From Fibrobacterota bacterium (GTDB lineage: Bacteria; Fibrobacterota; Fibrobacteria; UBA11236), in contig JAQBPO010000022.1 of assembly GCA_028287465.1 (NCBI GenBank), positions 1 to 64,000 on the forward strand: a stretch of DNA of 64,000 bases, read 5' to 3'. Positions 1 to 20,926 of the stretch are shown one piece after another. The notes under the pieces were generated by a model. It was not told where the DNA came from, did not search any database, and saw only the letters and a list, made by a program, of their open reading frames with translations. A program made the translations under genes and the position numbers. Positions within the stretch are counted from its first letter, which is position 1, and each line of letters begins with the position of its first letter.

Positions 1-125
1 GAACGGACTGCGCTCGGCCGTCACGTCTTTTGCTTGCGCAAAAGCCGCGCCGGTGACACTCCGGGTCTGTCCTTCCCAGGCCAGCCCCTCCGTCCGCGCT
101 CGCCGCTCATCCACGCGTTATACGG
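1..125 (+). repeat. attC-like recombination site, left-truncated by window
   Basis: This is the right part of an attC-type site; its left arm is cut by the window edge. It contains the GTCAC...GTGAC-bounded internal hairpin region, the inner-arm block CGCTCATCC, and the right terminal box GTTATACGG at 117-125. The same architecture recurs at 1095, 2213, 3175, 4317, 5907, 7163 and 8194. By integron convention, recombination would cut within the GTT triplet, so the first complete cassette of the window runs from about 118 to 1229. Confidence 0.75.
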
Positions 126-165
126 ACCAAATTACAAATGAAGAAATTGAAGAGATCCGGAAAAG

Positions 166-290
166 ATAAAATGGCCTTCGGCTTGGCTAATCGGATAAAA
201 TCAAGAAAATGAAGATAACTTCACTTCATCGGTAGCCGAAAAGCGACTCTGATTCCAGTGACAGCCCAAATAGGCCTTCAGCTTGGTGAA
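166..290 (+). repeat. Two copies of a dispersed GGCCTTCGGCTTGGC repeat in non-coding cassette leader
   Basis: The leader between the attC site and the first gene carries two diverged copies of a second repeat family. Copy one (about 169-205) has GGCCTTCGGCTTGGCTAATC. Copy two (about 250-290) has GATTCCA followed by GGCCTTCAGCTTGGTGAATT. Related copies occur at 4537-4590 and 6599-6650, always in non-coding stretches of cassettes. I see no convincing ORF. The copies may be debris of an older element or a mobile non-coding cassette. Confidence 0.5.
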
Positions 291-340
291 TTAGGTGCCC
301 GAAGCGGGCAATGAAATCAAGAAAAATTGGACAAGAAAAA

Positions 341-1081
341 ATGAACGAAATCGAAGTCCTTAGCCTAAGAGTTGAGCAACTTCAAAATATGCTTTGCTCT
401 GTTGCCACAGGTGGGAGCGCCGATGACAAGGAATTTAAGGGTTTAAGGGAGCACTTGGTTGGAAGACGTGAAATCAAAGAAATGCTTCCGCGGTTCATCT
501 ATACTTGCCGTGATTTAGAGCAATTCTGGGCATTCATCAAACACAAATATCCGTCCTATAAGGAGAGAAAACAATTTCTTTGGGACGAATTCGGAAAAGT
601 AATTGTGCATTTAGAATCTCTACAAAATCCCTCTTCGAAAAATATCGAAACAGCCATAGTGAGCTTCAATGCTGAAGGAGTACACACAGCTTGGTCAAAG
701 GCACTCTCTCGAAGAGTTGAGGATCCTGCAGGAGCAATTACTTCAGCTCGCACGTTACTTGAAACAGTATGCAAGCATATTCTCGATGACTCGGAAATCT
801 CCTATGCCGAAGACGCGGATCTCCCTAAACTGTACCGGTTGTGCTCCGAAAGCTTGAAACTCGCACCAAGTCAACATACGGAAGAGATATTCAAACAAAT
901 ACTAGGAGGATGCACTTCAGTTGTTGTAGGCCTTGGAGCACTTCGAAATAAAATGGGTGATGCACATGGAAATGGAAGAAAAAATTCAAAACCATCGACT
1001 CGCCATGCTCATTTGGCAGTAAATTTGGCTGGGTCAATGGCTACTTTCATGATCGAATCCTGGGAAAATAAGCCAAAATAG
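341..1081 (+). CDS. Abortive infection (Abi C-terminus) family protein
   Basis: About 246 aa, cargo of the first complete cassette. The C-terminal 110 residues match the Abi C-terminal domain seen in abortive-infection proteins: DPAGAITSARTLLETVCKHI, then ADLPKLYRL, then PSQHTEEIFKQILGG, GLGALRNKMGDAHG and a final LAVNLAG helix. The N-terminal part (residues 1-120) is helical with no domain I can name. Family knowledge points to phage defence by growth arrest; a defence role here is inferred. An upstream in-frame ATG at 311 exists, but ATG 341 is preferred because the protein then starts MNEIEVL after a weak GGACAAG ribosome-binding site. Stop codon TAG lies 13 bp before the next attC. Confidence 0.82.
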   Translation: MNEIEVLSLRVEQLQNMLCSVATGGSADDKEFKGLREHLVGRREIKEMLPRFIYTCRDLEQFWAFIKHKYPSYKERKQFLWDEFGKVIVHLESLQNPSSKNIETAIVSFNAEGVHTAWSKALSRRVEDPAGAITSARTLLETVCKHILDDSEISYAEDADLPKLYRLCSESLKLAPSQHTEEIFKQILGGCTSVVVGLGALRNKMGDAHGNGRKNSKPSTRHAHLAVNLAGSMATFMIESWENKPK

Positions 1082-1094
1082 AAATGAAAAAAAT

Positions 1095-1237
1095 CCGTAT
1101 AACAAATCGATTCAACCTGCCGAGCCTCGGCCGACATGCCTTTCGCTTGCGCGAAAGCCACGCCGGTGACCCTCACCCCTTGTCCCTCCGGGCCAAGGGG
1201 TTCGGCCTCGTTCGCAGGTTAATCGGGCGTTATACGG
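1095..1237 (+). repeat. attC-like site, 143 bp
   Basis: The outer boxes CCGTATAAC (1095-1103) and GTTATACGG (1229-1237) are perfect complements over 9 bp. The inner arms AACCTGC and GCAGGTT pair over 7 bp, unlike the GATGAGC/GCTCATC arms of sibling sites, so the arms change together. The internal terminal structure has the hairpin CTTTCGCTTGCGCGAAAG and GCCGGTGACC. Confidence 0.8.
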
Positions 1238-1245
1238 ACTAAAAT

Positions 1246-1443
1246 ATGAATAAGAAAAAACCAACCCCGGAATTAATAAAATTGGCCAAAGAATATCCAA
1301 ATGGATGGATGTATGAACTTTTACCGGAATATGAAGGAAAAGCTGAGGTACCAATGGAAGGTATTGTCGGTGCATGGCAAGTCGATTCCAAGGGCAATAT
1401 TATCGGTGAGTTCATACCGAAAAAGGATTTCGACAAACATTAA
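1246..1443 (+). CDS. Small conserved hypothetical protein, cassette gene
   Basis: 65 aa, beginning only 9 bp after the attC right box, the compact layout typical of integron cassettes. The protein is soluble and acidic-basic mixed, with the motif NGWMYELLPEY followed by GIVGAWQVDSKGNIIGEFIP. This looks like a short beta-rich fold that I have seen as an unannotated conserved family. No function can be assigned. No clear Shine-Dalgarno is visible upstream; translation may rely on the attC leader. Confidence 0.7.
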   Translation: MNKKKPTPELIKLAKEYPNGWMYELLPEYEGKAEVPMEGIVGAWQVDSKGNIIGEFIPKKDFDKH

Positions 1444-1491
1444 AAGCGGCAAAATGGCTTCGAGCCTGCCCGCTTCCGAGACGTAATACGG
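1444..1491 (+). repeat. Degenerate attC remnant; 1492-1738 holds no convincing gene
   Basis: Directly after the preceding stop codon, a GC-rich fragment ends in GTAATACGGACTAA (1483-1496), one base away from the canonical right box GTTATACGGACTAA. The left arm and internal hairpin are gone. The following 1492-1738 stretch contains only a lysine-rich 63-codon ORF (1500-1691) with low-complexity sequence that I do not believe. It also contains a palindromic GTGGCCTACGGCCA segment near 1633. Confidence 0.4.
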
Positions 1492-1738
1492 ACTAATGAA
1501 TGAAGACGAAGGAGAAAAAGAAAGAATCGGACAAAGAAATGAATACGAAGAAAAACGCAAAGGAAAGACAAAATAAACGTCACAATGGCGACGTTCAAAA
1601 CGTGGCGCTGATTCGATGGCTAGGCTCAGTCGTGTGGCCTACGGCCATTGGGGGAAAAAAGCAAGGATTATTCTTTCCCTGGAATGAATAGATAAGCGTG
1701 AATTCTTTGAGAAATAAAACCAACCATAGAAAATCGAA

Positions 1739-2220
1739 ATGATCGAAATCGAAGCGAAAACATTATTCGAAGCTCCAATCGCGGTTGTTTTCGATGCCGA
1801 AAGAAACATCTCGCTTCATGCCGCGACACAAGGACACCGTGGGGAGATTGCAGTAGCGGGCGTCACTTCGGGTTTAATTGAAAAGGGGCAGGAAGTCGAA
1901 TGGGAGGCTACCCACTTCGGTATAAAACAGCGGCTTCGAGTCAAAATAACGCACATGGACAAACCAGGTTATTTCAGAGACGAGCAGGTTTTTGGGGCTT
2001 TTAAGACCTTTACTCACGAGCACCATTTCCTCGCACTCGGATCGGATCAAACGGAGAAAACGGATGTCATGCGAATCGAAGCTCCGCTGGGACCCTTGGA
2101 AAAATTGCAGAGGTCCTATTCTTGAGGCGGTATATGACCGTATTCTTACAGAAAAAGAATATGGAACTCAAAACACTCGTCGAAAATGAACAGAAAAACC
2201 AAAGAAGAAATGCCGTATAA
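1739..2220 (+). pseudogene. SRPBCC (START-like) family protein with a -1 frameshift
   Basis: Residues 1-120 match small ligand-binding SRPBCC proteins: an N-terminal FEAPIAVVFDAERNISLH strand, then GEVEWEATHFGI-like text (seen as QEVEWEATHFGIKQRLR), and AFKTFTHEHHF. The first frame stops at 2125 just after APLGPLEKL. The family's C-terminal helix continues in the next frame as RYMTVFLQKKNMELKTLVEN and ends at 2218-2220. Adding one A to the A5 run at 2100-2104 restores a continuous protein of about 160 aa. This is either a true inactivating frameshift or a homopolymer sequencing error. The restored stop codon TAA lies inside the left box of the next attC. Confidence 0.75.
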
Positions 2221-2354
2221 CAATCGGTTCAACCCGATGAGCCTCGGCCGTCACAGCCTTTGCTTACGCAAAGCCTGCGCCGGTGACCCTGCGCACCCGT
2301 CCTTCCCGGCCGGGCGCTCCGGCCTCGTTCGCCGCTCATCCGGTCGTTATACGG
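2213..2354 (+). repeat. attC-like site, 142 bp
   Basis: Left box CCGTATAAC 2213-2221, right box GTTATACGG 2346-2354, inner arms GATGAGC and GCTCATC. The internal part holds hairpin CTTTGCTTACGCAAAG bounded by GTCAC and GTGAC. It is one of the best preserved copies and close to those at 4317 and 8194. Confidence 0.82.
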
Positions 2355-2404
2355 ACTAAATCAGAAAATAGACCGGAAACAGGGATTCTTATCTAAATAA
2401 CGTA

Positions 2405-2442
2405 TTGCCGTATATACACGATTTACGTATAATAGAATCGTG
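2405..2442 (+). promoter_or_regulatory. Promoter with embedded operator for the toxin-antitoxin pair
   Basis: TTGCCG (2405-2410), a 17 bp spacer and TATAAT (2428-2433) form a strong sigma-70-type promoter. An inverted repeat CACGATT (2417-2423) / AATCGTG (2436-2442) brackets the -10 box, a good position for autorepression by the HTH antitoxin. The predicted start of transcription falls at about the GTG start codon (2440), so the mRNA would be leaderless. Confidence 0.6.
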
Positions 2443-2709
2443 AAATATGACTGGGATCCCCCTAAAAATCTCGAAAATATTAGAAAGCACGGAATCTCTT
2501 TCCCAGAGATTGTCAGCTTGATTGGACATGGCGGGTTTATCAAAGTCGTGATCAACAAAAGCGTCAAGTATCCAGACCAAAAGGTCCTTTTGGTAAGAAA
2601 AGGCAAAGCCATCTACATGGTCCCTTTCGAAAAGCGCGGAGATTTAAGGTGGATTATAACGGCATTCTATAGCCCAGCGTACACAAATAAATATCCGAGG
2701 AAAAAATGA
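2440..2709 (+). CDS. BrnT-like (DUF497) toxin
   Basis: 89 aa. The N-terminus KYDWDPPKNLENIRKHGISF is the hallmark of the BrnT/DUF497 family of RelE-fold ribonuclease toxins. It is followed by the beta strands VLLVRKGKAIYMVPF and RWIITAFYSPAYT. The start is GTG, chosen because family members begin with the equivalent of MKYEWDP. The gene sits right after an attC and overlaps the next gene by 4 bp (ATGA), so the two are co-translated. Classical BrnT partners with a ribbon-helix-helix BrnA; here the partner is an HTH protein. Toxicity is inferred from the family. Confidence 0.78.
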   Translation: MKYDWDPPKNLENIRKHGISFPEIVSLIGHGGFIKVVINKSVKYPDQKVLLVRKGKAIYMVPFEKRGDLRWIITAFYSPAYTNKYPRKK

Positions 2710-3182
2710 AATCGAAAAGTGATACGAAGGATTTAGAAGAATATTTGGAAGCGCATGCAAACGAACTCGTGGATGACGAAAGTGAAGATGCTGCTGATAT
2801 TGTAAGCAGCGCCAAAGCAGATGATAAAGAGAGAAAGGCTAGAGCCGCGCTTTTCCAACATCGCAGAAATGAGCTTAAGCTCTCTCAAAGCAAATTAGCG
2901 AAGGCGGTCGGGGCTAATGTAAGGACACTTCAAAATTGGGAACAAGGAAGACAAGATTTTCCTATGTCAGTTGCGATTTTATTGAACTTGATGAAGAATA
3001 TCCCTTCAGTTAAAAAATACTTAACAAGTAATTCGGTTAATGTTACCTCGGAGATTAAGATTGGACATCGTAAAACTGGGGTGGATCACAAGGTTCGTAG
3101 GAAGGTGCATGCCCCTATAAAACAAAAGCATGCGCCTTTGAAGTCTAGGGTTCATAAGCAAAGTACCGCCAAAGCCGTTTAA
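2706..3182 (+). CDS. HTH (XRE-type) antitoxin/autorepressor
   Basis: 158 aa. The acidic N-terminus (residues 1-45, rich in D/E) resembles a toxin-binding segment. An XRE-like helix-turn-helix spans about 50-100 with ELKLSQSKLAKAVGANVRTL and NWEQGRQDFP. The basic, lysine/histidine-rich tail (about 115-158) is low complexity and likely flexible. The 4 bp overlap with the BrnT-like gene and the palindrome over the promoter make this the expected antitoxin and repressor. The stop codon TAA overlaps the left box of the following attC. Confidence 0.75.
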   Translation: MKSKSDTKDLEEYLEAHANELVDDESEDAADIVSSAKADDKERKARAALFQHRRNELKLSQSKLAKAVGANVRTLQNWEQGRQDFPMSVAILLNLMKNIPSVKKYLTSNSVNVTSEIKIGHRKTGVDHKVRRKVHAPIKQKHAPLKSRVHKQSTAKAV

Positions 3183-3315
3183 CAATCGAGTCAAACGGAC
3201 TAACCTCGGCCGTCATGTCTTTCGCTTGCGCGAAAGCCACGCCGGTACCCTCAGTATTTGTCCCTACGGGCCAAAGCCTTCGGCCTCGTTCGCAGGTTAT
3301 CCGGGCGCTATACTG
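3175..3315 (+). repeat. attC-like site, 141 bp, mildly degenerate
   Basis: Left box CCGTTTAAC 3175-3183 and right box GCTATACTG 3307-3315 both deviate from the canonical sequence and pair imperfectly. The internal hairpin CTTTCGCTTGCGCGAAAG and the AACCT/AGGTT inner arms are kept. The next 240 bp (3316-3557) contain no ORF that I trust. Confidence 0.7.
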
Positions 3316-3557
3316 ACGAAATCAAACAACAAAAATTGGACAAACAAAATACAGAACGGTATTGATTCGTGGTCAAGTATTGCTCACATCATACCCAATA
3401 CGATTTAGATTCAATAGATTCTGCGAAGTCAAACTATGGTACAAAAATTGCTTTGAATTCAAGTGCCACGATGCTGTTTCCGAAAAGTAGTTAAGATTGG
3501 TTTGAGATAAAGTGTCAAGATATAAGAGTTTATTGAAAACCAGTAGCGAGAATTAAT

Positions 3558-4136
3558 ATGAGAATGCCTAAAATTACGTTGGTGTGCTTATTGTTTTTTG
3601 CGCAGGCATGTCAAAAGTTGGATTCTATTACTAGCAAAAAAGATGAAATTGTAAAAGAGACTAAAAGCAATGAGCCTGAAGGGGCTTTGCTATTCCTTCG
3701 GACGAATACCACCACCCAATCGCATGGTGTAGGGGGGGTTCAATGGTATGTGGGTGGTGGTCGGATGTATACCGGTGAGCATGCATTTGGTCAAGTACCA
3801 GATTCAGTAAAGAAAGATAGTGTCAGTCGCATCTCCCTCATGTTTTCTCTGGTTGATAGTAATCTTGTGAAAATAAATGCAGATACGATGAATCGTATTC
3901 TTGATTTAGTAAAAATGGTAGGGGATTCGGATGTGTATTGTAAATACCGAAGCGGACCTGCAATGGGCGACATAGAGAGTAGATACGTGTATAGATTGGA
4001 TAGTGCTAGCCAGAGGTATTCTAAGATACTGGCCGGCTTCGAAGACCCTTTTTGTTTTGGAGGCACGGGTTACAAATCTCCAGAATCCCAAGAGCTCGAT
4101 GATTTAGTACATAAAGCGATATTTCCAATTCGGTAA
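3558..4136 (+). CDS. Hypothetical lipoprotein, cassette gene
   Basis: 192 aa. A short signal peptide with lipobox FAQAC gives lipidation at the Cys near residue 18; ATG 3564 is an alternative start. The mature part has a Gly-rich stretch (HGVGGVQWYVGGGRMY), DSV/DSN-rich segments and four to five further cysteines that could form disulfides (VYCKYRSG, PFCFGG). No named domain is recognised. It is one of four lipoproteins in the array. The gap to the next attC (4137-4316) is non-coding. Confidence 0.7.
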   Translation: MRMPKITLVCLLFFAQACQKLDSITSKKDEIVKETKSNEPEGALLFLRTNTTTQSHGVGGVQWYVGGGRMYTGEHAFGQVPDSVKKDSVSRISLMFSLVDSNLVKINADTMNRILDLVKMVGDSDVYCKYRSGPAMGDIESRYVYRLDSASQRYSKILAGFEDPFCFGGTGYKSPESQELDDLVHKAIFPIR

Positions 4137-4316
4137 TTAATATTCCTAAATCTGAATTACAAATGCGTTTTCAGCCAGCCTGGCTTGACATTTGATGTAA
4201 GGGGCTTTCGGGGTCCATTTCCTGTCCGCCTAGTTCCGTTTAAGTACTTTTTGGCCGTACCCGGGAGTCGCATCCATAGAGTCAAAAACCTCGCCGCAAG
4301 GCGCCCTTTGGAGCCG

Positions 4317-4458
4317 CCGTATAACAATCTGTTCAACCCGATGAGCCTCGGCCGTCACAACCTTTGCTTACGCAAAGCCTGCGCCGGAGACGCTCCGGAC
4401 TTGTCCCTCCGGGCCAAGCCCTCAGGCCTCGTTCGCCGCTCATCCACGCGTTATACGG
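4317..4458 (+). repeat. attC-like site, 142 bp
   Basis: Left box CCGTATAAC 4317-4325, right box GTTATACGG 4450-4458, inner arms GATGAGC/GCTCATC, internal hairpin CTTTGCTTACGCAAAG. A longer ORF spanning this site (4185-4586) is an artefact of the open GC-rich palindrome. Confidence 0.82.
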
Positions 4459-4536
4459 ACGAAGTATTTGAAGAAATGGAAAGGCCAAATTACGGAAATG
4501 AAAACAAACTCTACCGAGACATCTTAAATGCAGTGT

Positions 4537-4590
4537 TGATTCCAAGGACGGCCGAAATAGGCCTTCGGCTTGGCGAGTCGGATTAAAAAA
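4537..4590 (+). repeat. Dispersed GGCCTTCGGCTTGGC repeat in non-coding leader
   Basis: Within the 237 bp leader between the attC and the next gene lies GATTCCA, then GGCCGAAATAGGCCTTCGGC, then TTGGCGAGTCGGATTAAAA. The core can fold as GCCGAA/TTCGGC. A related GCTGATTC fragment follows near 4644. This is the clearest copy of the family also seen at 166-290 and 6599-6650. Confidence 0.5.
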
Positions 4591-4695
4591 AGAAGATCGG
4601 GAGACAGGAAAATCCAGAAATCAGCGGTCTCCAAAGGGCCGTGCTGATTCAAAAGCCGGGAGTTAGAGTGAATGGACAGGAAAAAGGATAAAAAA

Positions 4696-5151
4696 ATGAA
4701 ATTTCGTTTGGTCGTGGGATCGATCTTATTGTTTGCCGCCTCGTCGTTTTCCGAAGACGAAAAATTGAAGGACAAAATATATTTAAGTCGCAACAACCAG
4801 ATTCAAACCCTTCAGTCCTCTACACTTTCTAATACAAAGTACCTGGTATTTAGGCTCAAAAAGAAACTGGATGGAAAGAATTCAAGAGGTAAGGGATACG
4901 ACGAGAAGTCTAATTATGGCGACTCGGCATCAACGTATTGCTACAAAAAGGAATCCGATTTAGCCGAATTGGAAAAGACAATGATAAGTGAATGGTTTAC
5001 CTCGAATGGGTCAATAAGTATCCAGTACACCTGTGGGGACTTGCAAGACGAGGAAAAGAGGAAAAGCTTTCTCGGATTTGCGGAAACGAATTGCCAATGC
5101 CTTGACATAACTTTCGAAAATATGAACAAAACAAAAAGCCCATGGAGATGA
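4696..5151 (+). CDS. Hypothetical secreted protein, cassette gene
   Basis: About 151 aa from ATG 4696, which follows AAGGA at 4684-4688. An upstream ATG at 4672 would place charged residues before the signal peptide and is less likely. The signal peptide (MKFRLVVGSILLFAASSFS) is followed by a charged mature domain with five cysteines, two of them in the pair NCQC near the C-terminus, suggesting disulfides. No known family is recognised. The stop lies 9 bp before a minimal attC. Confidence 0.68.
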   Translation: MKFRLVVGSILLFAASSFSEDEKLKDKIYLSRNNQIQTLQSSTLSNTKYLVFRLKKKLDGKNSRGKGYDEKSNYGDSASTYCYKKESDLAELEKTMISEWFTSNGSISIQYTCGDLQDEEKRKSFLGFAETNCQCLDITFENMNKTKSPWR

Positions 5152-5159
5152 AAAAATAG

Positions 5160-5226
5160 CCGTATAACAATCGGTTCAACCCGATGAGCTTCGGCATCGT
5201 TCGCCGCTCAATCGGGAGTTATACGG
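5160..5226 (+). repeat. Minimal attC-like site, 67 bp, lacking the terminal structure
   Basis: Same outer boxes as its siblings (CCGTATAAC 5160-5168 and GTTATACGG 5218-5226) and the same left arm, but the roughly 75 bp internal hairpin region is absent. The inner arms CCCGATGAGC and GCTCAATCGGG pair fully except for one extra A, which would be an extrahelical base of the kind integrases read. Confidence 0.8.
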
Positions 5227-5297
5227 AAAAAAAATCGAGAACAAATTCACAATCGCAATCGTCAAATTCAAATCGTCTCCTGTTTCGAAAAGGAAAA

Positions 5298-5717
5298 ATG
5301 AGAAAATTCAAACATTTATTGATCATTCTGACCATTCCAATTTCGTTCATGGGATGCTCGAAAAATGAATGTAACAGCGGACCTACTGCGGCTGGATCTT
5401 GGACATGGTACCTGGAGTTTAAAGGATTCGTGAACCAAGCAATTGATAGCGCGGCTGTTTCCGGTGCCGATGTCGTTATCAATCAAAAGTATTCCGGGAA
5501 GACAGACTCTAATGGGTATTATTTAATTCGAAATTTAAGCTGCAACGAAAATCAAATAAAAGCCATATCACAGATATCAATTACCGTCTCAAAGGATGGA
5601 TACGCTTTCTTTTCCAAAACCGTTTCAAGGGATAGTGTAGGCCAGTCTGCGCTAGGGAACGACTCACAATCATCAGGAACACAGTTCAAATTACCCACGG
5701 CTTCCCTTTCAAAGTAA
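5298..5717 (+). CDS. Lipoprotein with carboxypeptidase-regulatory-like fold
   Basis: 139 aa from ATG 5298, preceded by AGGA. The signal peptide ends in lipobox SFMGC. The mature part reads GFVNQAIDSAAVSGADVVIN, then GKTDSNGYYLIRNL, the pattern of a CarboxypepD_reg/Cna-B-like beta sandwich, often used in surface-exposed proteins. Further upstream ATGs in frame fall inside the attC site and are rejected. The region 5718-5906 after it is non-coding. Confidence 0.72.
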   Translation: MRKFKHLLIILTIPISFMGCSKNECNSGPTAAGSWTWYLEFKGFVNQAIDSAAVSGADVVINQKYSGKTDSNGYYLIRNLSCNENQIKAISQISITVSKDGYAFFSKTVSRDSVGQSALGNDSQSSGTQFKLPTASLSK

Positions 5718-5906
5718 TTCTAATTCGCATCCATCTTCGAATTGGGGCCCTACCGGCCTTGGTTAGGATTTTAATGACTCGTCTTCGACTTTGAAATGTG
5801 ACAAGACGACCGTTTTGAATAAGGTTAAAGGCCCGGAAATGAAGACATGGTAATTCAAAGCAAAGAGATCCAAAATCAAGATGGATCAAGAGATCGGAAA
5901 AAACCG

Positions 5907-6047
5907 CCGCATAACAAACGGATGAACCTGACCGGGCTCGGCCGTCACAGCCTTTGCTTGCGCAAAGCCTGCGCCGGTGACCCTACGCCCCTTCCCTCCA
6001 GGCTAAGCCCTCCGTCCTCGTTCGCAGGTTAATAGGTCGTTATACGG
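5907..6047 (+). repeat. attC-like site, 141 bp
   Basis: Left box CCGCATAAC 5907-5915, right box GTTATACGG 6039-6047. Inner arms AACCTG/CAGGTT match the arm type of the 1095 site rather than the GATGAGC type. Internal hairpin CTTTGCTTGCGCAAAG. Confidence 0.8.
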
Positions 6048-6064
6048 CCTGAGAAATCAAAAAA

Positions 6065-6265
6065 ATGCATAAATACCTATACGGAATCCTTGTCGTCGCA
6101 ATAGCCATTGGGTTACTGCTGAATATCAACGTGTTGTCAATGCTTGGCTTGGTTGGGTTACTATTTGTGGGCGTGCTTCACCTTTTTCCAACTCTGTTCC
6201 CACTTTCAAAAGAAGAAGTTGAGGAAGTAAAAAGGAACGGCGATACATCCGGTGGAGAATCATAG
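6065..6265 (+). CDS. Small membrane protein, cassette gene
   Basis: 66 aa starting 17 bp after the attC right box. Two hydrophobic segments (YGILVVAIAIGLLLN and MLGLVGLLFVGVLHLF) are followed by an acidic-basic tail KEEVEEVKRNG. It would sit in the inner membrane as a hairpin with a cytoplasmic tail. No family is recognised. Confidence 0.6.
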   Translation: MHKYLYGILVVAIAIGLLLNINVLSMLGLVGLLFVGVLHLFPTLFPLSKEEVEEVKRNGDTSGGES

Positions 6266-6317
6266 GTGTTTCAGTCGATCAGTTGCTATCCGGGCGGAAT
6301 AAGCAGATAAGGAAACT

Positions 6318-6521
6318 ATGATTGGCGGCCCCGTACACCTATTTTTTGCTCTGGTATTTGCGGTAAGCATCGGCCTCATGCTGCTTGGGCTGTACTCCAA
6401 AAAACACCCTATGGTTATTTATGGATTGATTGCATTGGTGCTTGCGCTTATCCTATTGAAAATTACATGCTCAAAAGAACCCGAAACCCCGGTCATTTTG
6501 CCTGCGCAGAGGGTTAAATAA
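6318..6521 (+). CDS. Small membrane protein, cassette gene
   Basis: 67 aa with two predicted membrane segments (HLFFALVFAVSIGLMLLGLY and MVIYGLIALVLALILLKI) and a short Pro-rich tail. It is preceded by AAGGAAACT 6-14 bases upstream, a usable ribosome-binding site. It lies 52 bp after the previous small membrane gene with no attC between, so the two may share one cassette and act together. Confidence 0.6.
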   Translation: MIGGPVHLFFALVFAVSIGLMLLGLYSKKHPMVIYGLIALVLALILLKITCSKEPETPVILPAQRVK

Positions 6522-6598
6522 ATTGTCAACCGGACTAAGAAATGAAGAGATCAGGAAATGAAGAAAAGGCCGTGGTAGAGGCTTCCGGAGGGTGGCTC

Positions 6599-6650
6599 GG
6601 ATTCCAGCAAGGGCCAAAATTGACCTTCGGCTTGGCAAATCGAAGGAAGA
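6599..6650 (+). repeat. Dispersed repeat copy in non-coding stretch 6522-6728
   Basis: GGATTCCAGCAAGGGCCAAA, then GACCTTCGGCTTGGCAAATC. It is aligned with copies at 166-290 and 4537-4590. The stretch opens at 6524-6539 with a CAACCGGACTAAG fragment resembling the end of an attC, suggesting a lost site. Confidence 0.45.
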
Positions 6651-6728
6651 TAACGGAAAGAGAAATCCACTCTTGGGAGGCTTTCTGAGGGCGTCCTTGA
6701 TTCAGATGGAAAAACGGAAATTCGGAAA

Positions 6729-7148
6729 ATGAGCCAAGAGCCAATCACTTCCTATATCAATTATTTCGTACTACGATATTTCTTGGGACTATTTTGGGGG
6801 ACAATATCATTCGGAGCGACATTTCTTGGATCTTTTGGTATCGGTACTACCGAAAATTGGAATTGGAAAATCGGGTTGTTGTTCGCCCTCCTTTCAATAC
6901 TTTGCCTTTATACTTTCCTCAGGTGTCGAATAGTAAGCTATCACCTAAACGATATATCGATTGGAAATAATACCTTTGCGATCCGAGATATCGAAAAGGT
7001 ATACGAACTGGGTTATTGGAAAATAACCTTGTGGATCAAAATTAGAGGGAGGTGGTATTTTACTCCCGTTGGTGGGGATAAGAGAAATGAAATCGAGATT
7101 TTAAGGAGGAAAGTGACTTGGACGGGAATAAATAAAAGACCAATATAG
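6729..7148 (+). CDS. Hypothetical membrane protein, cassette gene
   Basis: 139 aa. Two membrane helices (about residues 14-38 and 46-63, FGATFLGSFGIG and IGLLFALLSILCLYTFL) precede a C-terminal domain of alternating strands (SYHLNDISIGNNTFAIRDIE, KITLWIKIRGRWYFTPVGG) with a PH-like or bPH-like appearance. Such layouts occur in small envelope proteins of unknown function. It ends about 15 bp before the next attC. Confidence 0.65.
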   Translation: MSQEPITSYINYFVLRYFLGLFWGTISFGATFLGSFGIGTTENWNWKIGLLFALLSILCLYTFLRCRIVSYHLNDISIGNNTFAIRDIEKVYELGYWKITLWIKIRGRWYFTPVGGDKRNEIEILRRKVTWTGINKRPI

Positions 7149-7162
7149 AAGGCAAAATAATG

Positions 7163-7305
7163 GAGTATAAAAAAACGATGCAATCTGCAGAGCTTCGGCC
7201 GTCATGCCTTTCGCCTACGCTAAAGCCACGCCGGTGAACCTACGCACCCGTCCGTCCCGTCCGATCGCTCCGGCCTCGTTCGCCGCTCATCCGGTCGTTA
7301 TATGG
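7163..7305 (+). repeat. attC-like site, 143 bp, degenerate left box
   Basis: The left box is decayed (GAGTATAAA near 7163-7171); the right box is GTTATATGG 7297-7305. The inner right arm CGCTCATCC and the internal region with GCCGGTGAACC are recognisable. Confidence 0.7.
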
Positions 7306-7435
7306 ACAAACGAAAATTGAAAAATGAAAGATTATGAGAATCAATTCTAAACGGAAATTTCCGAAGCGCTCCTCTTACTCATAATTAAGGAACTAGAACA
7401 TTGTGGCATTGACCAATTTATATGGGCAAACGTAA

Positions 7436-8095
7436 ATGAGAAATCTAAAAATACTTCTTCTCAACTTATTTATAGCTGGGTGCGCCTACTTTGAAAATGG
7501 AGCGACGACAAAAATTCGGTTGGGTCGAGAAGGAAGCCAGAAAATCTATTTGAATGGGTCCGAATTACGTGATTCTACGAGTGAAATCGAAATATTGAAT
7601 CAAAATAAGTACCGTATAAAAATAGAGGATGGAGAAAATGTCAGGGAAGAAACCGTGGAGCAAAAAATCAATTCCACAGCATATCAAAGCTTGATTATTT
7701 GGCCATATATTTTCGTGGACCTTAATTTGGGAAGTCATTTGAAGGTTAACGATGGGAAGTATTATAAAGTAATAGGCAGAGGCCAAGAGCTTTCCGATGA
7801 TTGCGAGGAAAATGGACGGCAGGTTCTGGAAAAGAGCATAAAAAATACTTGGATATATTTTATGGGAGGATCCATGCTTGCCCTAGTTGGTGCCGGATAT
7901 GCAGAACAATCGCATCCAATGATCATGGTACAAATACCACTTTCCATTGGTGCTTTTGGTGGCCTTGTCGGTGCTGGCTACAGCGTATATAAAACAGGAT
8001 CAAAGACACGGGAAATTCGGAAATGCATTGAAGGCCGAATTGACCGGCAACATATTTTTGCTGCAAATGACACCGTGCCTCAGAAAAAGCAATAG
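7436..8095 (+). CDS. Lipoprotein with two Gly-rich membrane segments, cassette gene
   Basis: 219 aa. Signal peptide with lipobox FIAGC (Cys 16). The periplasmic part reads KIRLGREGSQKIYLNGSEL and so on. A central hydrophobic segment (YQSLIIWPYIFVDLNLG) and two Gly-rich helices near the C-terminus (FMGGSMLALVGAGYAEQ and IGAFGGLVGAGYSVYKTG) resemble glycine-zipper proteins that insert into membranes. No enzyme motif. The leader 7306-7435 holds no other gene. Confidence 0.7.
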   Translation: MRNLKILLLNLFIAGCAYFENGATTKIRLGREGSQKIYLNGSELRDSTSEIEILNQNKYRIKIEDGENVREETVEQKINSTAYQSLIIWPYIFVDLNLGSHLKVNDGKYYKVIGRGQELSDDCEENGRQVLEKSIKNTWIYFMGGSMLALVGAGYAEQSHPMIMVQIPLSIGAFGGLVGAGYSVYKTGSKTREIRKCIEGRIDRQHIFAANDTVPQKKQ

Positions 8096-8193
8096 CAAAG
8101 CAGAAACGATTTAAGTTCAAACCCGAACGATTTCGACATGCAAGTACACCAAAGTCCGCTTTCAGAAAACATATCAAATTGAAAATGGAAAAT

Positions 8194-8336
8194 TCGTATA
8201 ACAATCGGCGTACCCCGATGAGCCTCGGGCGTCACAGCCTTTGCTTGCGCAAAGGCCGCGCCGGTGACCCCTGCGCAACCGTCCGTCCCGGCCGAGCGCT
8301 CCGGCCTCGTTCGCCGCTCATCCGGTCGTTATACGG
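8194..8336 (+). repeat. attC-like site, 143 bp; last well-preserved copy
   Basis: Left box TCGTATAAC 8194-8202, right box GTTATACGG 8328-8336, inner arms GATGAGC/GCTCATC, internal hairpin CTTTGCTTGCGCAAAG. To the right of this point only fragments of sites remain. Confidence 0.82.
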
Positions 8337-8353
8337 ACTAAGAAATTGAAGAA

Positions 8354-8578
8354 ATGAAAACCCAATCCGAAAAAGATAAAAACCAAAAATACATTCGATA
8401 TTTATGGTTGATTTTAGCCGTCGCTTCGATCTGGTTTGCCATCGTTAAAATCTGGATCCCGATTAAAAACGGCGCGCCAACCGAAATTCCCGGTCTGTAC
8501 AGTAGAATTGTATCAGGCATATTATTTTTAATCTCCACAACGGCACTCTATTTACAGAGGAAGCGAAAGAAAAAATGA
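8354..8578 (+). CDS. Small membrane protein, cassette gene
   Basis: 74 aa starting 18 bp after the attC right box. The charged N-terminus is followed by helix LWLILAVASIWFAIVKIWI, a short loop NGAPTEIPG, helix IVSGILFLISTTALYL and a basic tail RKRKKK, predicting both ends in the cytoplasm. No family is recognised. Confidence 0.6.
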   Translation: MKTQSEKDKNQKYIRYLWLILAVASIWFAIVKIWIPIKNGAPTEIPGLYSRIVSGILFLISTTALYLQRKRKKK

Positions 8579-8640
8579 GGTTTGATTTTTGCCTTTGGGG
8601 GCGAAGGATAGTGTTCTCGGGTTATCCACATGTTATTCGG
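8579..8640 (+). repeat. Degenerate attC remnant
   Basis: After the previous stop codon a short segment ends in GTTATTCGGATTAAG (8632-8646), matching the canonical right box plus flank with one change. The left arm is unrecognisable. A DnaA-box-like TTATCCACA at 8622-8630 is probably fortuitous. The stretch up to 8761 shows no convincing gene start. Confidence 0.4.
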
Positions 8641-8761
8641 ATTAAGAAATCAAAGAAATGAATGGGATAAACGAGTGGCTAAATCACGGCTTGGATTCAT
8701 ATAACGAGTAAAGTCCAATTTATTTGGAAAGAGGTATTACCAAACCACCCTTCTTCCGCTC

Positions 8762-8932
8762 ATGGCACTCCATCGGTATGGATTCGAGCCGTTTTATTCC
8801 GAAGCGCAAATGAAATTCTCCGCTCAAGCCTTGGGACGAGAAGAATATTACGACGAAGAAATTGCCATTGCCCTCATAGGCCATTCAAAGGAAATGGCGG
8901 CTTTTCAAAAATATCGAGAGATCCGGGGTTAA
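8762..8932 (+). CDS. Possible short ORF, 56 aa
   Basis: ATG 8762 opens a 56-residue frame containing RYGFEPFYSEAQMKFSAQAL and ending KYREIRG. The same frame is open back to 8705 without a start codon, so this may be the tail of a broken gene. The composition is protein-like (acidic, amphipathic helices). The stop overlaps a degenerate attC end, as in intact cassettes. No family is recognised. Confidence 0.35.
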   Translation: MALHRYGFEPFYSEAQMKFSAQALGREEYYDEEIAIALIGHSKEMAAFQKYREIRG

Positions 8933-8947
8933 CCGGGCGTTATGCGG
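8921..8947 (+). repeat. Degenerate attC remnant
   Basis: GGTTAACCGGGCGTTATGCGG (8927-8947) keeps the right-hand end of a site, with GTTATGCGG instead of GTTATACGG. The remainder of the palindrome is missing. Confidence 0.4.
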
Positions 8948-8989
8948 ACGATGCGATGAATGTAAATGTTAAAATGAGCCGGTGAATAA

Positions 8990-9589
8990 ATGGAAATCGA
9001 TGAATATAAATCAATGCTTCAAAGGCAAGATTTCCAAAGCCTAAAGGGGATATTGTTATCTATTGACGCTGAGAAATTCCAAGAGAGATATAAAGCCGTT
9101 CTGGAAGAAGTTGAAGAGCGAAAAGCCCTGGTGAATGTACAAGAAACAGGTCGCCTAACTGATTCAGTACCCAGATGGAAGGTCCAAAAGGGTTGGCACA
9201 AAATCAATGCGATCATTGTCCTTGTGCTTTCAGCGGTTTCTTTTTACTCGACGTTTAGCGCAACCGAATCCGGTTATGTCTTGAAATTCGATGAGCTTTA
9301 TTTCGGAGTGATGGGCTTAATAGGCGTTATCTTTTATTTCCGGAAATTCAAAATAGGGCATAATCTTCTGCTTCTCTGGTGGCTGCCTCAACTTGCCGAA
9401 TTCGAAACGAGCACATTCAAATATTCGCTTTATTCCGGAATCAAATTTGGAGTTGATCTTCAGATTGGAACACTTGAACTCAGCACAAATCTTTTGGCGA
9501 TCATTTCATTTATGTGGCTTATCGCATTTAAGAAGTATTACGAAAAAAGGATACGGAAGGAAAAAGATGGGTATGTCGTTTTAACTTAA
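8990..9589 (+). CDS. Hypothetical multi-pass membrane protein
   Basis: 199 aa. The N-terminal 65 residues form a cytoplasmic helical, charged domain (QERYKAVLEEVEERKAL). About four hydrophobic segments follow: IIVLVLSAVSFYSTF, LYFGVMGLIGVIFYF, LLLLWWLPQL and LLAIISFMWLIAF. A basic tail ends the protein. The start follows GAGCCGGTG, a weak ribosome-binding site. No family is recognised. It lies among degenerate cassettes in the array's distal part. Confidence 0.65.
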   Translation: MEIDEYKSMLQRQDFQSLKGILLSIDAEKFQERYKAVLEEVEERKALVNVQETGRLTDSVPRWKVQKGWHKINAIIVLVLSAVSFYSTFSATESGYVLKFDELYFGVMGLIGVIFYFRKFKIGHNLLLLWWLPQLAEFETSTFKYSLYSGIKFGVDLQIGTLELSTNLLAIISFMWLIAFKKYYEKRIRKEKDGYVVLT

Positions 9590-9620
9590 ATATTTAGCGT
9601 AACCGGTCTTTATACGGACC
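9590..9620 (+). repeat. Degenerate attC remnant; 9621-9811 non-coding
   Basis: GCGTAACCGGTCTTTATACGG (9597-9617) appears to be both outer ends of a site fused together: TAACC on the left and TTATACGGACC on the right, with the middle deleted. The next 190 bp contain a GCGGATTC/GGCCTTTCG fragment like the dispersed repeat, and no gene. Confidence 0.4.
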
Positions 9621-9811
9621 AATGAAAAAAGGAGCGGCACAGAAGCCGGGATTAAAATGGCGATAGGGGGTTGGCTATTGAATGGATAATGAAGCGGTAT
9701 ACGGGCGGCGGCAGAGGTATCTATAGAAGGGCGCGGATTCAAAGGGACGGCCTTTCGCGTGGTCTGCGGTCAATGGCGAATTGAACGAGTGGAAGGAAGT
9801 GATACCCGAAA

Positions 9812-10108
9812 ATGAATCCAATCCAAAAAGCCGCTTTTCTCCTGGACCTTGCTGGTTTGAAAAGCCAACCCCTCTCCAAAGAAACGGTTGGCGGAGCGCT
9901 TGCCCAGGATAGAAAATCCCTATCCACCGCCCTCCATCGGGCCGTGACGCATACGGGAGCTCCCGGCACAAAGGACAAAGGGGAAGAAATCAAAGCTATT
10001 TTGAGGGCTCTGATCCAAAGCGGGGCGGATATCCGCATCAAAAACAAGATGGGGAAAATGCCCATCGAATACGTAAAAGACGAAGAAATCAAAAAGATTC
10101 CCACGTAA
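9812..10108 (+). CDS. Small ankyrin-repeat-like protein
   Basis: 98 aa. The C-terminal half reads LSTALHRAVTHTG, then EEIKAILRALIQSGADIRIK and NKMGKMPIEYV. This is one degenerate ankyrin repeat pair (the TPLH and GADIN...G.TP..Y signatures). Such a short piece may be a binding module or a fragment of a longer ankyrin protein. It ends 15 bp before the next gene and may be co-transcribed with it. Confidence 0.6.
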   Translation: MNPIQKAAFLLDLAGLKSQPLSKETVGGALAQDRKSLSTALHRAVTHTGAPGTKDKGEEIKAILRALIQSGADIRIKNKMGKMPIEYVKDEEIKKIPT

Positions 10109-10123
10109 AGGCTACGAGAAAAA

Positions 10124-10897
10124 ATGAAAGTACGAATTTACTTGATATCCCTCCTGGCAATTGGCTGTACGAATATGCCACGCGTTAATCCAACTAACGA
10201 AATCAACCAACCTGTGTTCTTTAGTGGCCACTACATGTCCGCAGGAGCGACATTTGGAGTCCAATCCGTCAACAATGAGCTCGATTCTACCTACCAAATC
10301 GGACCGTTGATCGAGCCATTGCTTGCCATAAGCGGTAACGTTAACTCATGGGCAAGCTATTTGTTTTGGCCCCTGTTTTGGAACTTCTTGTTAACGGGTG
10401 AACAGTACTCGACCATTGGAGTACTCAAAACAGGCAAAGTAAATTTGGCTGTATTCGGGGGAATGAATTCAATCGCCTACTCTCAGAGGGACGAATGGGA
10501 GTTTGGTGTTGGAACCGGGATCCGGGCCAAGATTCTATTTTCCAACACGATTTATTCAGAAATCACAACGGCACTTCAGCTAAGTGATTTTAGAAGGCTC
10601 GAGAGAGGATATCTGTCAACCCATCTTACCAATGGCTTTCAATTTTCGCCGAAGAATTCGGTTGCCCTGGATTGGACTTCAACTCTTTACAAAATCGAGG
10701 AGCGGCGGTATTTCGGTGCCCATGGGCTGGCATTCTACAACCAGGATGTTAACAACGAAATTCGCGCGAGGCTTACAACCTATTTCACCGCAAACCATGT
10801 GCTTGGGCCTGAAATAGGGTATGGGTTCCTGAACCTACGTGGTGGTCGGGATGATTACTACTTGATTGGCGTGACATATAGGTATGTGTGGAGATAA
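10124..10897 (+). CDS. Lipoprotein, outer-membrane beta-barrel-like
   Basis: 257 aa. Lipobox LAIGC (Cys 15). The mature part has alternating amphipathic strands (GKVNLAVFGGMNSIAYSQRD, EFGVGTGIRAKILF, VLGPEIGYGFLNLRGG) and ends YLIGVTYRYVW with a C-terminal aromatic residue, resembling outer-membrane porin-like barrels. ATG 10124 follows ACGAGAAAAA. It is the largest cargo gene of the distal array. No specific family can be named. Confidence 0.65.
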   Translation: MKVRIYLISLLAIGCTNMPRVNPTNEINQPVFFSGHYMSAGATFGVQSVNNELDSTYQIGPLIEPLLAISGNVNSWASYLFWPLFWNFLLTGEQYSTIGVLKTGKVNLAVFGGMNSIAYSQRDEWEFGVGTGIRAKILFSNTIYSEITTALQLSDFRRLERGYLSTHLTNGFQFSPKNSVALDWTSTLYKIEERRYFGAHGLAFYNQDVNNEIRARLTTYFTANHVLGPEIGYGFLNLRGGRDDYYLIGVTYRYVWR

Positions 10898-10973
10898 GAC
10901 CTTGCGAGTGAAAAAGAGGTGCCACGCCAGTTCCTTCCGGGCCTTCCTCGCGGCCCATTCTTGCGTTATAGGG
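10898..10973 (+). repeat. Degenerate attC remnant, last in array
   Basis: The segment keeps GTGCCACGCC, GGGCCTTCCTCG and CATTCTTGCGTTATAGGG, which parallel the internal and right parts of canonical sites (GCGTTATACGG). The left box is lost. No further site-like sequence is seen to the right. Confidence 0.45.
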
Positions 10974-11007
10974 AAGAAATTGGACAAGAAAAACAGGATA
11001 GGTAAAA

Positions 11008-11634
11008 ATGCATAATTGGAGAAAGGAAAAATTCGAAGGGCTTAGACAGGTCATCGAATACCTAAGCGACAAGGCGCAATTCCATAAATACATGGAGTAT
11101 TGCGACTTTCGCGGACAGGGTCTTCGGAAAGAGGCATTCAAGGCGCTAAATGGATTTCTGGGTCAAGCGACTTTGTGGGATTTCAACGAAAGAAAAGAAT
11201 TCGTCGATTGGATATTGTGGGTTCACAATGGATTACCCGATGTCACTGATTTGTTGCCTGATCCCATGTACCAAAAACTGATTGAACCGACTCTCTTGGA
11301 GTGGCAAGTAAAGGAACCGGGAACAAGCGCGGCATTTCGATGGAGTGGCGGTGTCGACAACCTTCGAAAGGCGCTTAAGATAGATGAAAATGACGATATC
11401 GCTAAAATCAAATTCGCCAAAGCCATATTGAATCATTCGAACTATTCGATTCATGAATTGCCGTCTGGATATCTCGGCGATCCGCATGAGGATTTAAGCG
11501 ATGTCGCGGAAGCGATTCAATATCTTGTCAAACCATTCCCGGATCCAAGTCGGGACAGTATCTTATCCAATTTGACTTCGAACTACGAAACGATTGAAAA
11601 ATGGATATTGGAAATCGAAAATCGTGAATCATAA
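11008..11634 (+). CDS. Hypothetical soluble protein
   Basis: 208 aa, helical and acidic, without signal peptide or membrane segment. Readable stretches include WRKEKFEGLRQVIEYLSDKA, DFNERKEFVDWILWVHNGLP and DPHEDLSDVAEAIQYL. ATG 11008 follows AGGATAGGTAAAA, a reasonable ribosome-binding site. Immediately downstream of the last attC remnant, it could be the last cassette gene. No family is recognised. Confidence 0.62.
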   Translation: MHNWRKEKFEGLRQVIEYLSDKAQFHKYMEYCDFRGQGLRKEAFKALNGFLGQATLWDFNERKEFVDWILWVHNGLPDVTDLLPDPMYQKLIEPTLLEWQVKEPGTSAAFRWSGGVDNLRKALKIDENDDIAKIKFAKAILNHSNYSIHELPSGYLGDPHEDLSDVAEAIQYLVKPFPDPSRDSILSNLTSNYETIEKWILEIENRES

Positions 11635-11700
11635 AACAATCGTCGATCCCGGTTATTTCAGGGACGCCGTCTAGCAAAGGCATGGGGAGCGAATACGAAA

Positions 11701-12057
11701 TTGAAGAAAAAACATCCTCAATTCGAGCATTTTCAACAGCCACTTCTTCCAAGGCGGACATTTTTATTTCGGTTAGCCCGGCATGGGGGGTATGCTTCGG
11801 TTTTCCTTTTTTTCTCCTTGGCTATGGGCATGGTCGGATACCACTTCTTTGCCCAACAAATCTGGATCGATTCCTTTTTGAATGCGAGCATGATTTTGAC
11901 TGGAATGGGACCCGTCGGTGAAATGGTTACTCCCCTTTCCAAAATATTCTCCGGTCTATATGCGCTTTACAGCGGAATCGCTTTCTTGAGCGCGGTTGGG
12001 CTATTTTTTGCACCGATCGTCCATCGGGTCATCCACAAATTCCATCTTGGCCAATAA
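11701..12057 (+). CDS. Conserved small membrane protein
   Basis: 118 aa from TTG 11701. Three hydrophobic segments: YASVFLFFSLAMGMVGYHFF, WIDSFLNASMILTGMGPVGE and LYALYSGIAFLSAVGLFF. The motif around ILTGMGPVGEM followed by KIFSGLYALYSG is one I recognise from a widespread uncharacterised membrane family. It probably belongs to the host chromosome or is an old insert, since it carries no attC. Function unknown. Confidence 0.65.
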   Translation: MKKKHPQFEHFQQPLLPRRTFLFRLARHGGYASVFLFFSLAMGMVGYHFFAQQIWIDSFLNASMILTGMGPVGEMVTPLSKIFSGLYALYSGIAFLSAVGLFFAPIVHRVIHKFHLGQ

Positions 12058-12140
12058 CCCTGGGAACCAATAAAGTCATGCCACCGGAAAAATTCCAAGA
12101 ATGGGAAATTATGTCGCAATTCGGAATACAAAACCGAGTG

Positions 12141-12407
12141 AGCCAACCCTAAGGTTGCGCCTGCGACGGCTGCCTGGTCGATCTCCGTCTGCTGGAGAAT
12201 ACGGCCTCCCTAACCGACCTTTACCGATTGCCCGACAGCTACCCCGCCATGAACATGCCCGCCGACGTGAAAATCGCCTTGCTCACCAACCCCGGCCACA
12301 AGGACCGGGACGCGACCCGCTTCTACGAAACCATCTGCGTCAATCGCGGCTGGAGCGTGATGACGACCTTCGATAGGGATGCGGGACTCCTCTGGCTCGG
12401 GAAATGA
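12141..12407 (+). pseudogene. 5'-truncated STAS/SpoIIAA-like protein remnant
   Basis: The frame from 12141 to the TGA at 12405-12407 reads LRLLENTASLTDLYRLPDSY, then ADVKIALLTNP, then RFYETICVNRGWSV and a final LLWLG. This matches the C-terminal two thirds of the STAS-like family (typical signature: FLETVxxNRGxxVxxFxDxxxALxWL). The N-terminal 40-50 residues are missing and sequence composition changes at about 12,150. The remnant marks the boundary between accessory array and GC-rich chromosome. Confidence 0.55.
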
Positions 12408-12450
12408 AAAAATCTACCTTCCTTACCCATATCCCATCCTCGGAGGTTCC

Positions 12451-12837
12451 ATGAAGCGGGTCACAGGCATCGGCGGCATCTTTTTCAAAGCCAAAGACGC
12501 ACCGGCGCTACAGGCCTGGTACAAGCGTCACCTGGGAATCGATGTCCAGGCATGGGGCGGCACGGCGTTCCCCTGGACCGATGGTGAAGGCAAGCCGATC
12601 GCGGGTTCCACAATCTGGTCCATCGGTTCGGCGCAGGGAGACCCCTTCGCCCCCGGCACCTCGGCTTTCATGGTCAATTACCGGGTGGAGGATCTCCACG
12701 CCTTGGTCAAGGTCCTGCGCGAAGAAGGCTGCAATGTCCTCGATAAGATGGACGATTCCGAGTACGGGAAGTTCGCCTGGGCCATCGATCCGGAGGGAAA
12801 CAAGGTGGAACTCTGGCAACCCCCTGCCGGCCAATGA
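12451..12837 (+). CDS. VOC (glyoxalase/bleomycin-resistance) family protein
   Basis: 128 aa. ATG 12451 follows GGAGG at 12442-12446. Single vicinal-oxygen-chelate fold: first beta-alpha unit TGIGGIFFKAKDAPALQAWY, HLGIDVQAWGGTAFPW, then the second unit FMVNYRVEDLHALVKVLREE and the ending AIDPEGNKVELWQP with the metal-ligand-type Glu. Substrate is unknown; members of this subgroup are usually annotated only as VOC. It sits 4 bp before rtcA, so the two are probably one transcript. Confidence 0.85.
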   Translation: MKRVTGIGGIFFKAKDAPALQAWYKRHLGIDVQAWGGTAFPWTDGEGKPIAGSTIWSIGSAQGDPFAPGTSAFMVNYRVEDLHALVKVLREEGCNVLDKMDDSEYGKFAWAIDPEGNKVELWQPPAGQ

Positions 12838-12841
12838 TCCG

Positions 12842-13876: not shown

Positions 13877-13916
13877 CTATCCCCGTTTTCCGATCGTCCG
13901 CATGGGAGTGGGCCGG

Positions 13917-20800: not shown

Positions 20801-20926
20801 AGCCTGGCGTTGACCTTGTTCGTGGTGCCGGCGTTCTATACCTACCTGTCCTCGGCGCCCCGCGCCATCCGGAAGGAAAACCCGGCGGAAGACGCGATCC
20901 TGCCCGGCCGGTTGAGCCCGGGATGA
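17816..20926 (+). CDS. RND efflux pump inner-membrane permease
   Basis: 1036 aa from GTG 17816. AcrB/HAE-1-type proton-driven exporter: N-terminal IKRPVLGLVLNLIIVLMGLV, two large periplasmic loops, and the TM4 motif GLVVDDAIVVLENIYKK with proton-relay Asp401 and Asp402. A second half repeats the fold with FGEIGIIMLIGLVTKNGILI. Length and duplicate topology are normal for the family. The start is set by the 4 bp overlap with the adaptor gene and the MMPL-like N-terminus. A longer upstream frame is antisense-like GC-rich sequence and is rejected. Confidence 0.93.
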   Translation: MNFSSLFIKRPVLGLVLNLIIVLMGLVSFEFLGVRDYPSVDPPVVTVSTTYTGAAPEVMEAQVTEPLESSINGIAGIRTLTSTSARGTSTITVEFNLGADIEAAANDVRDRVSRATRQLPSDLTSPPVISKADANAAPILIVTVQSDTRSPLDLSEYASDVITERVQTVPGVSEVRIFGEQRYAIRLIMSAGLMTARGVIPQDVQDALNRENVELPAGYIQGNRTELTVRSMSRLQHPEEFGNLVLRSDSGRVVRFRDIGTVVEGPENDRTMMKRDGQRMIGVAVIPQPGANHIAIADEFYKRLDRLIAEAPKDMRISMLLDYTVNVRHSITEVLETLGAAFLLVVLVIFVFLRDWRATLIPVIALPISLLGAFFLMYVSGFSINILSLLAIVLATGLVVDDAIVVLENIYKKIEAGEDPESAGHRGSKEIFFAVLSTTLTLAAVFLPIVFLQGIVGRLFREFAVVVAGAVLLSAFVSLTITPMLCTRFLKRREHGPRSFYARSEAFFENLINGYHRMLEGFLVRRWVGFLIMILSMVLIAVFFRSLPRELAPTEDRSRLNVSATAPEGTSFTAMNEYMDALYALIAKQVPEKAAIQTLTAPGFGGTGGVNNGTGRIILKDPGERKRTQQQIADDLSRAVRQLSFARAIVSQEQTISTDRRGGLALQYVIQAPDLERLAARLPAFLQEANASPAFQVVDANLKFNSPEIRLQIDRPRARDLGVSPLDIDQTLQLGLSGSRYAYIVRGGKQYQVIGQLELRDRDQPTVLRSLYVRGSGGRLVQLDNVLDLQEGGSTPQRYRFNRFSSATVSAGLAPGVTMGAGIDAMDAIAAKVLDPSFTTSLTGPARDYAESSSSLVFAFLFALVLIYLVLAAQFESFKDPLIIMFTVPLALAGAFLSLWYFNQTLNIFGEIGIIMLIGLVTKNGILIVEFGNQRKAEGLSLHQAIVESAVSRFRPIVMTSLTAILGTLPIALALGAGARSRMSMGIVVIGGLLFSLALTLFVVPAFYTYLSSAPRAIRKENPAEDAILPGRLSPG

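Follow-up and report, generated by a model that had tools for sequence, protein, structure and literature searches.

What are the long palindromes that alternate with small genes over positions 1–10973 of the stretch presented above (64,000 nucleotides, hereafter the window), and if they form the cassette array of an integron, where is the corresponding integrase encoded? A first-pass annotation of these letters had proposed an integron cassette array. The window starts at the very end of an assembly contig of 118,812 bp, C81. We consider it almost certain that positions 1–10973 represent the distal portion of a sedentary chromosomal integron in an uncultured Fibrobacterota species, and that its proximal portion terminates a different contig of this genome, C13. 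That portion comprises the integrase gene intI, an attI-like site, no fewer than two cassettes and a single attC site. The integron, a natural device for collecting genes, is genuine and fairly ordinary, and comes from a little-studied phylum.

Organization of the attC Array

Eight attC sites of the array were two-sided, a ninth was truncated by the end of the contig, and five further sites were one-sided remnants; all lay on the + strand, in agreement with the nine well-preserved and at least five degenerate palindromes counted previously. Repeat search and alignment placed the two-sided sites at 1095–1237 (143 nt, L boxes AACCTGC/GCAGGTT, with an extrahelical G in the fold), 2213–2354 (142 nt, L boxes GATGAGC/GCTCATC, bottom-strand fold z −6.1), 3175–3315 (R boxes slightly degenerate), 4317–4458, 5160–5226, 5907–6047, 7163–7305 (degenerate R'', GAGTATAAA) and 8194–8336, the first coordinate being in each case the start of the R'' box. 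The site at 5160 is a minimal form of 67 nt (74.6 bits) which lacks the branched middle and retains the R and L stems. The truncated site (1–125) matched positions 22–154 of the covariance model R1 with 101.5 bits and was flagged as cut off on the 5' side, because the window starts where the assembly cuts C81. The aligned sites shared the box pair R'' CCGTATAAC and R' GTTATACGG; these box sequences, noted earlier as 9 bp complements, and the length of 142 nt were exact in several copies.

The five remnants had their R' boxes at 1483, 8632, 8939, 9609 and 10965. The first (1470–1491) kept R' GTAATACGG only; it was recovered by the repeat search and fell under the threshold of a position-weight model of the right half of the site. 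This model scored the remnants at 8618–8640 (L'-R' only), 8925–8947 (L' GGTTAACCGG, R' GTTATGCGG) and 9595–9617 with 18.2, 25.8 and 23.5 bits, respectively. The final recognisable remnant (10918–10973, 9.1 bits) reads by eye GCCACGCC...GGGCC...GCGTTATAGGG. In total the right-half model found 13 sites on the + strand of segment 1–11700, none on the − strand of this segment and none on either strand of the other 51 kb, for a chance level of about 0.01 sites per Markov-simulated array.

Thirteen small AT-rich units lay between the sites. The two-sided sites were spaced by 0.7 to 1.3 kb, the gaps were filled by small + strand open reading frames (ORFs), and every plausible cassette ORF of the array had this orientation. 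The G+C content rose from 42% between the sites to 59% inside them and 63% in the flank, which bears out the early description of AT-rich, same-strand cargo in a GC-rich chromosome. The array may extend slightly beyond 10973, to about 11.64 kb. An ORF of 208 aa and low G+C (11008–11634, + strand) is either a last cassette devoid of attC or already part of the flank; it had no Pfam match and no homologue in the loci of relatives that were examined. The next ORF (11701–12057) was 69% identical to a homologue that a sister species carries in its chromosomal flank. A scan of positions 1–14000 against Rfam, with E up to 1, gave no match, and sigma-70 and terminator sites were no more frequent in the array than in shuffles.

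The Integrase and the attI-Like Site on a Second Contig

The integron integrase model TIGR02249 gave one match over its cut-off of 265 in the 5.8-Mb genome, at C13:1950–2882 (376.7 bits, E 1.7e-112), and none in the 14 control genomes. The corresponding ORF (C13:1596–2888) encodes a tyrosine recombinase of 430 aa. Residues 120–428 aligned to VchIntIA of Vibrio cholerae (PDB 2A3V) over 309 residues (E 3.6e-74). The catalytic residues R247, H378, R381, H404 and Y413 as well as the IntI-type segment were retained, and judging by its sequence the enzyme would be active. Relative to VchIntIA, the enzyme is extended at its N-terminus by about 115 residues (1–115; C13:1596–2888, locus L006); IntI relatives from Planctomycetota, Nitrospirota and Desulfobacterota also aligned over this extension.

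Going outward from intI, C13 showed the attI-like site, two small cassettes, a full attC and then the contig end. This attC (C13:110–263, 161 bits) belongs to the family of the window and lies on the strand that the array requires, and the orientation of C13 is that needed for a join of C13 (reverse) to C81 (forward). The remainder of the genome contained only a partial 35-bit match, on C18. An IntI gene and further copies of the 142 bp site were what the first-pass annotation had pointed to for a check of its integron reading; both were found together with the attI-like site at the end of C13. The opposite picture that it had named, a genome devoid of IntI with the palindromes scattered between core genes, does not describe this genome, where IntI is present and the sites are confined to the array. 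We infer a physical junction between C13 and C81; the near-identical attC repeats of the array are the most likely cause of the assembly break.

Since the sites are long imperfect palindromes similar in sequence, it could be asked whether they are an interspersed palindromic repeat family (REP/MITE-like) lying by chance between small genes. Such a family would hardly account for the single orientation, for the near absence of copies elsewhere in the genome, for a bona fide IntI and attI next to the array or for right-half boundaries that separate non-homologous ORFs. We give this explanation practically no credit: it is refuted by the integrase, by attI and by the confinement of the sites.

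The assignment of the attI-like site, made by sequence comparison, comes from a core, GGTTAATAWTATTGTTATACGGA, that was identical upstream of intI in the genome studied here (G000) and in the related genomes G159 and G158, while the surrounding DNA had diverged. Between intI and attI, the stretch ATAAATAGAAT/ACAAATAGAAT (L006:1490–1510; also in L134 and L135) was conserved in three species and may act as a promoter element of intI or of the cassettes.

Folding of the attC Sites

The predicted hairpin was examined on 42 attC matches from the genus, collected with model R1. The paired cells amounted to 89.8%, and 122 double-changed cells were counted against 38.6 ± 6.7 in shuffled alignments (none of 500 shuffles reached this value) and 13 to 34 when the partner was slid, the counts leaning in favour of the structure to which the alignment had been fitted. 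In the raw alignment, restricted to the eight window sites, 10 pairs already showed compensatory changes. Two classes of L box, GATGAGC/GCTCATC and AACCTGC/GCAGGTT, were each paired with their own partner, which constitutes further covariation. The bottom strand was more stable than the top strand in 32 of the 33 long sites, and in all eight two-sided sites of the window. In 18 of the 33, the L'' arm of the bottom strand carried one bulged G (typically GGTT(G)AAYCG), which came after an unpaired spacer of 2–3 nt. In the GATGAGC/GCTCATC class the predicted fold showed a G-G mismatch and no clean bulge.

Known features of attC sites are a protruding G, a central spacer left unpaired and a terminal structure with possible branching (PMC2727003), and the modelled hairpins of the genus display this anatomy. 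As in the long attC of the VCR type (PMC2727003), the sites are long (here 140–180 nt), with R and L stems, a protruding G in L'', a branched terminal structure and a more stable bottom strand. They differ from the VCR type in that the sequence is unrelated except for the AAC/GTT core, and in that about half of them (those with the GATGAGC/GCTCATC L box, and degenerate ones) have no bulged G in the predicted fold. In several attC of relatives an insert of about 30 nt was present in the loop of the GCAAAG hairpin (L138:699–880, L135:124–303, L137:10282–10464 and L140:3119–3314). These inserts were related in sequence (GGTC...GGTCT) and may be a second-level repeat inside attC.

Chromosomal Platform in Related Genomes

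An IntI over the cut-off was present in 14 of the 168 genomes searched across the phylum. The closest records carry the names Fibrobacteres bacterium RYN_348 (61%) and Fibrobacteria bacterium 336R_metabinner_36 (60%), both of the same genus, in line with the Fibrobacterota-type genome supposed at the outset. In the IntI tree the genus formed a supported clade (100/100), and its union with G154, which belongs to the same order, was moderately supported (89/82); the deeper nodes of the tree were without resolution. Sites of the R1 type were found in five of the six genus members and in none of the 35 other relatives.

The intI gene adjoined the same RND efflux operon in G000, in G159 (AcrB 91%) and in G155 (80%). 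Together with G156, where the C-terminus of an IntI adjoins this operon, the platform is common to four of the six genus members, and in all six the AcrB/RND operon was located at a contig end. No clearly shared cassette protein was detected in the loci of relatives (tblastn, 1e-3), the only match being a partial one of 27 aa. A shared platform with no clearly shared cassette is what characterizes a sedentary chromosomal integron, an old platform with young cargo. The flank of the array itself, at 17831–20842 of the window, contained another RND efflux pump gene, distantly related (27%) to the AcrB of C13.

The two contigs might also belong to different arrays, that of the window being a CALIN (attC sites clustered with no integrase) and intI of C13 serving a second, separate one. 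C13 and C81 are indeed separate contigs, C81 has no intI, and in the sister genome G159 attC sites were present on C29, C103, C114, C126, C46 and C85 besides the intI contig, an indication that CALINs may occur in the genus. Set against this, C13 and C81 both end within the same attC family with matching orientations, and in G000 the family is confined to these two contig ends. G159:C103, like C81, begins with an array and continues in synteny with the window from 13.9 to 33.4 kb. A single contig of G158 carries intI, the array and part of the flank seen on C81, and intI and array are linked in G159 as well. We therefore regard two separate arrays as unlikely and retain a single integron divided by the assembly.

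The attC of G159 on C29, C114, C126, C46 and C85 (L137, L139, L140, L144 and L145) were clusters or single sites with no nearby IntI over the cut-off, and at least these five contigs are of this kind; this genome has either CALINs or a much larger, broken array. Inside the array of G158:C17, a gene for an IS91-like transposase (Zn_Tnp_IS91, Y2_Tnp) was observed on the − strand (L135:1654–2979). Its frame crosses the attC at 1691–1845 of L135, as though the gene was carried as a cassette.

Some observations weigh against a single sedentary integron. No read or contig spans C13 to C81. In G158, intI lies beside DNA homologous to position 24.6 kb of the window, away from the RND operon, and the locus has thus been rearranged in that genome. 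No match to the LexA-type box TGCNCNNNNGTGCA was found near intI, which leaves SOS control unsupported. The R' box GTTATAC misses GTTRRRY at the fifth base, a departure already pointed out in the first-pass annotation; GTTRRRY is a consensus and not a requirement, and as GTTATAC was the R' of 24 of the 33 long genus sites (AAC terminated R'' in 27 of the 33), the departure is a property of the lineage. When other IntI genes were surveyed for their R' heptamers, with an exact 7-mer complement as the criterion, almost no arrays were detected; this survey is uninformative on the frequency of GTTATAC, the search being probably too strict or the arrays lying beyond the fetched flanks. Finally, six boundaries (five in the window and one at C13:1064) have no left half and should not fold.

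One-Sided Boundaries

The simplest reading of these six boundaries is that they are old sites which decayed at the distal end. All four boundaries past 8.6 kb were one-sided, as ageing at that end predicts, and most of the nearer ones were complete; this split was made after seeing the data and is a description, not a test.

Delta-attI-type cassettes have been described in class 1 and class 2 integrons (PMC12901181), and the one-sided L'-R' boundaries, which retain R' without a folding partner, could be attI-derived ends of this sort instead of decayed attC. The boundary at C13:1064, second in the array, has an AT-rich spacer that is somewhat attI-like. At 8939 (GGTTAACCGGGC), 9609 and 8632, the bases before R' fit the L' box of attC and not the attI core TTAATAATATT. 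A delta-attI origin is rejected on sequence for these three boundaries, C13:1064 being outside that rejection, and for the one-sided boundaries as a whole we hold it to be improbable. Less probable still is that 8632, 8939, 9609 and C13:1064 are working double-stranded attI-like ends, in which case the lineage would have two kinds of boundary and some cassettes would be locked.

Cassette Content

All the ORFs described below are on the + strand. The first cassette (311–1081) encodes a predicted abortive-infection protein of 256 aa with an Abi_C/AbiJ-like C-terminus (PF14355, 79.8 bits for a cut-off of 24; PADLOC AbiJ, 2e-21), which had no homologue among 40 relatives. It is followed by two ORFs of 65 aa (1246–1443) and 128 aa (1739–2125) with no Pfam match. 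TTGCCG-17-TATAAT (2405–2433, + strand), the most promoter-like sequence in the array and a consensus match only, precedes a cassette that is likely a toxin-antitoxin pair (2440–3182), judging from domain matches. The ORF at 2440–2709 resembles the BrnT toxin weakly (PF04365, 32.3 bits for a cut-off of 34.5), and its helix-turn-helix (HTH) partner at 2706–3182, over the cut-off for HTH_3, is MqsA/NadS-like below the curated cut-offs (TIGR03830 and NF041265).

The remaining cargo comprises several lipoprotein-like and small membrane proteins recognized by eye, the rest being without an assigned family. The ORF at 3558–4136 (192 aa) starts with a hydrophobic segment and a Cys and looks lipoprotein-like; that at 4672–5151 (159 aa) looks secreted. 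A lipoprotein-like protein of 139 aa (5298–5717) has a weak CarboxypepD_reg-like domain. Three small membrane-protein-like ORFs (6065–6265, 6318–6521 and 6729–7148), with no family over the cut-off, share the cassette at 6065–7148, and another lipoprotein-like ORF (219 aa, by eye) occupies 7436–8095. In the distal part were found a membrane-like ORF of 74 aa (8354–8578), a short ORF of 56 aa that runs into the following remnant (8762–8932), a membrane-like ORF of 199 aa (8990–9589), an ORF of 98 aa with a weak ankyrin-like match (9812–10108) and an ORF of 257 aa, by eye outer-membrane- or lipoprotein-like (10124–10897). The roles suggested here for the cassettes (abortive infection, toxin-antitoxin, lipoprotein-like) are predictions from such matches.

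Discussion

From its homology with studied integrons, the IntI of C13 would bind the folded bottom strand of the attC on a circular cassette and would exchange one strand, in the GTT of the R' box, with the double-stranded attI. New cassettes would enter beside intI in a single orientation and push the older ones outward, and the integrase could also excise cassettes by recombination between two attC sites.

The sedentary integrons of V. cholerae (the superintegron) and of Xanthomonas (at the ilvD locus) have the same organization, with an IntI of the VchIntIA family, attI beside intI and closely similar attC sites in one orientation. In Xanthomonas the chromosomal place is conserved and the cassettes change (PMC12444791), likewise in the present genus. 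What differs here is the Fibrobacterota host, the RND efflux operon as platform, the additional N-terminal residues of IntI and the R' GTTATAC. The chromosomal integrons of Treponema (PMC3607928) are similarly found at the level of a genus, outside the Proteobacteria and with a lineage-specific attC; they belong to another phylum and have another attC family. No description of an integron in Fibrobacter, Fibrobacteres or Fibrobacterota was found in the open-access literature searched, and genome-wide surveys may list it undiscussed.

Recent work, as cited in PMC12444791, sees integron cassettes as phage-defence stores, and the predicted abortive-infection gene and the likely toxin-antitoxin pair fit this view. 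Arrays of this kind are points where assemblies break, so that metagenome-assembled genomes may often show integrons as fragments only. Movement of cassettes between these bacteria and others could be followed with the attC model of the genus. The locus adds to the Fibrobacterota a chromosomal integron whose integrase is intact, whose attI-like site is conserved and whose attC sites form a lineage-specific family.

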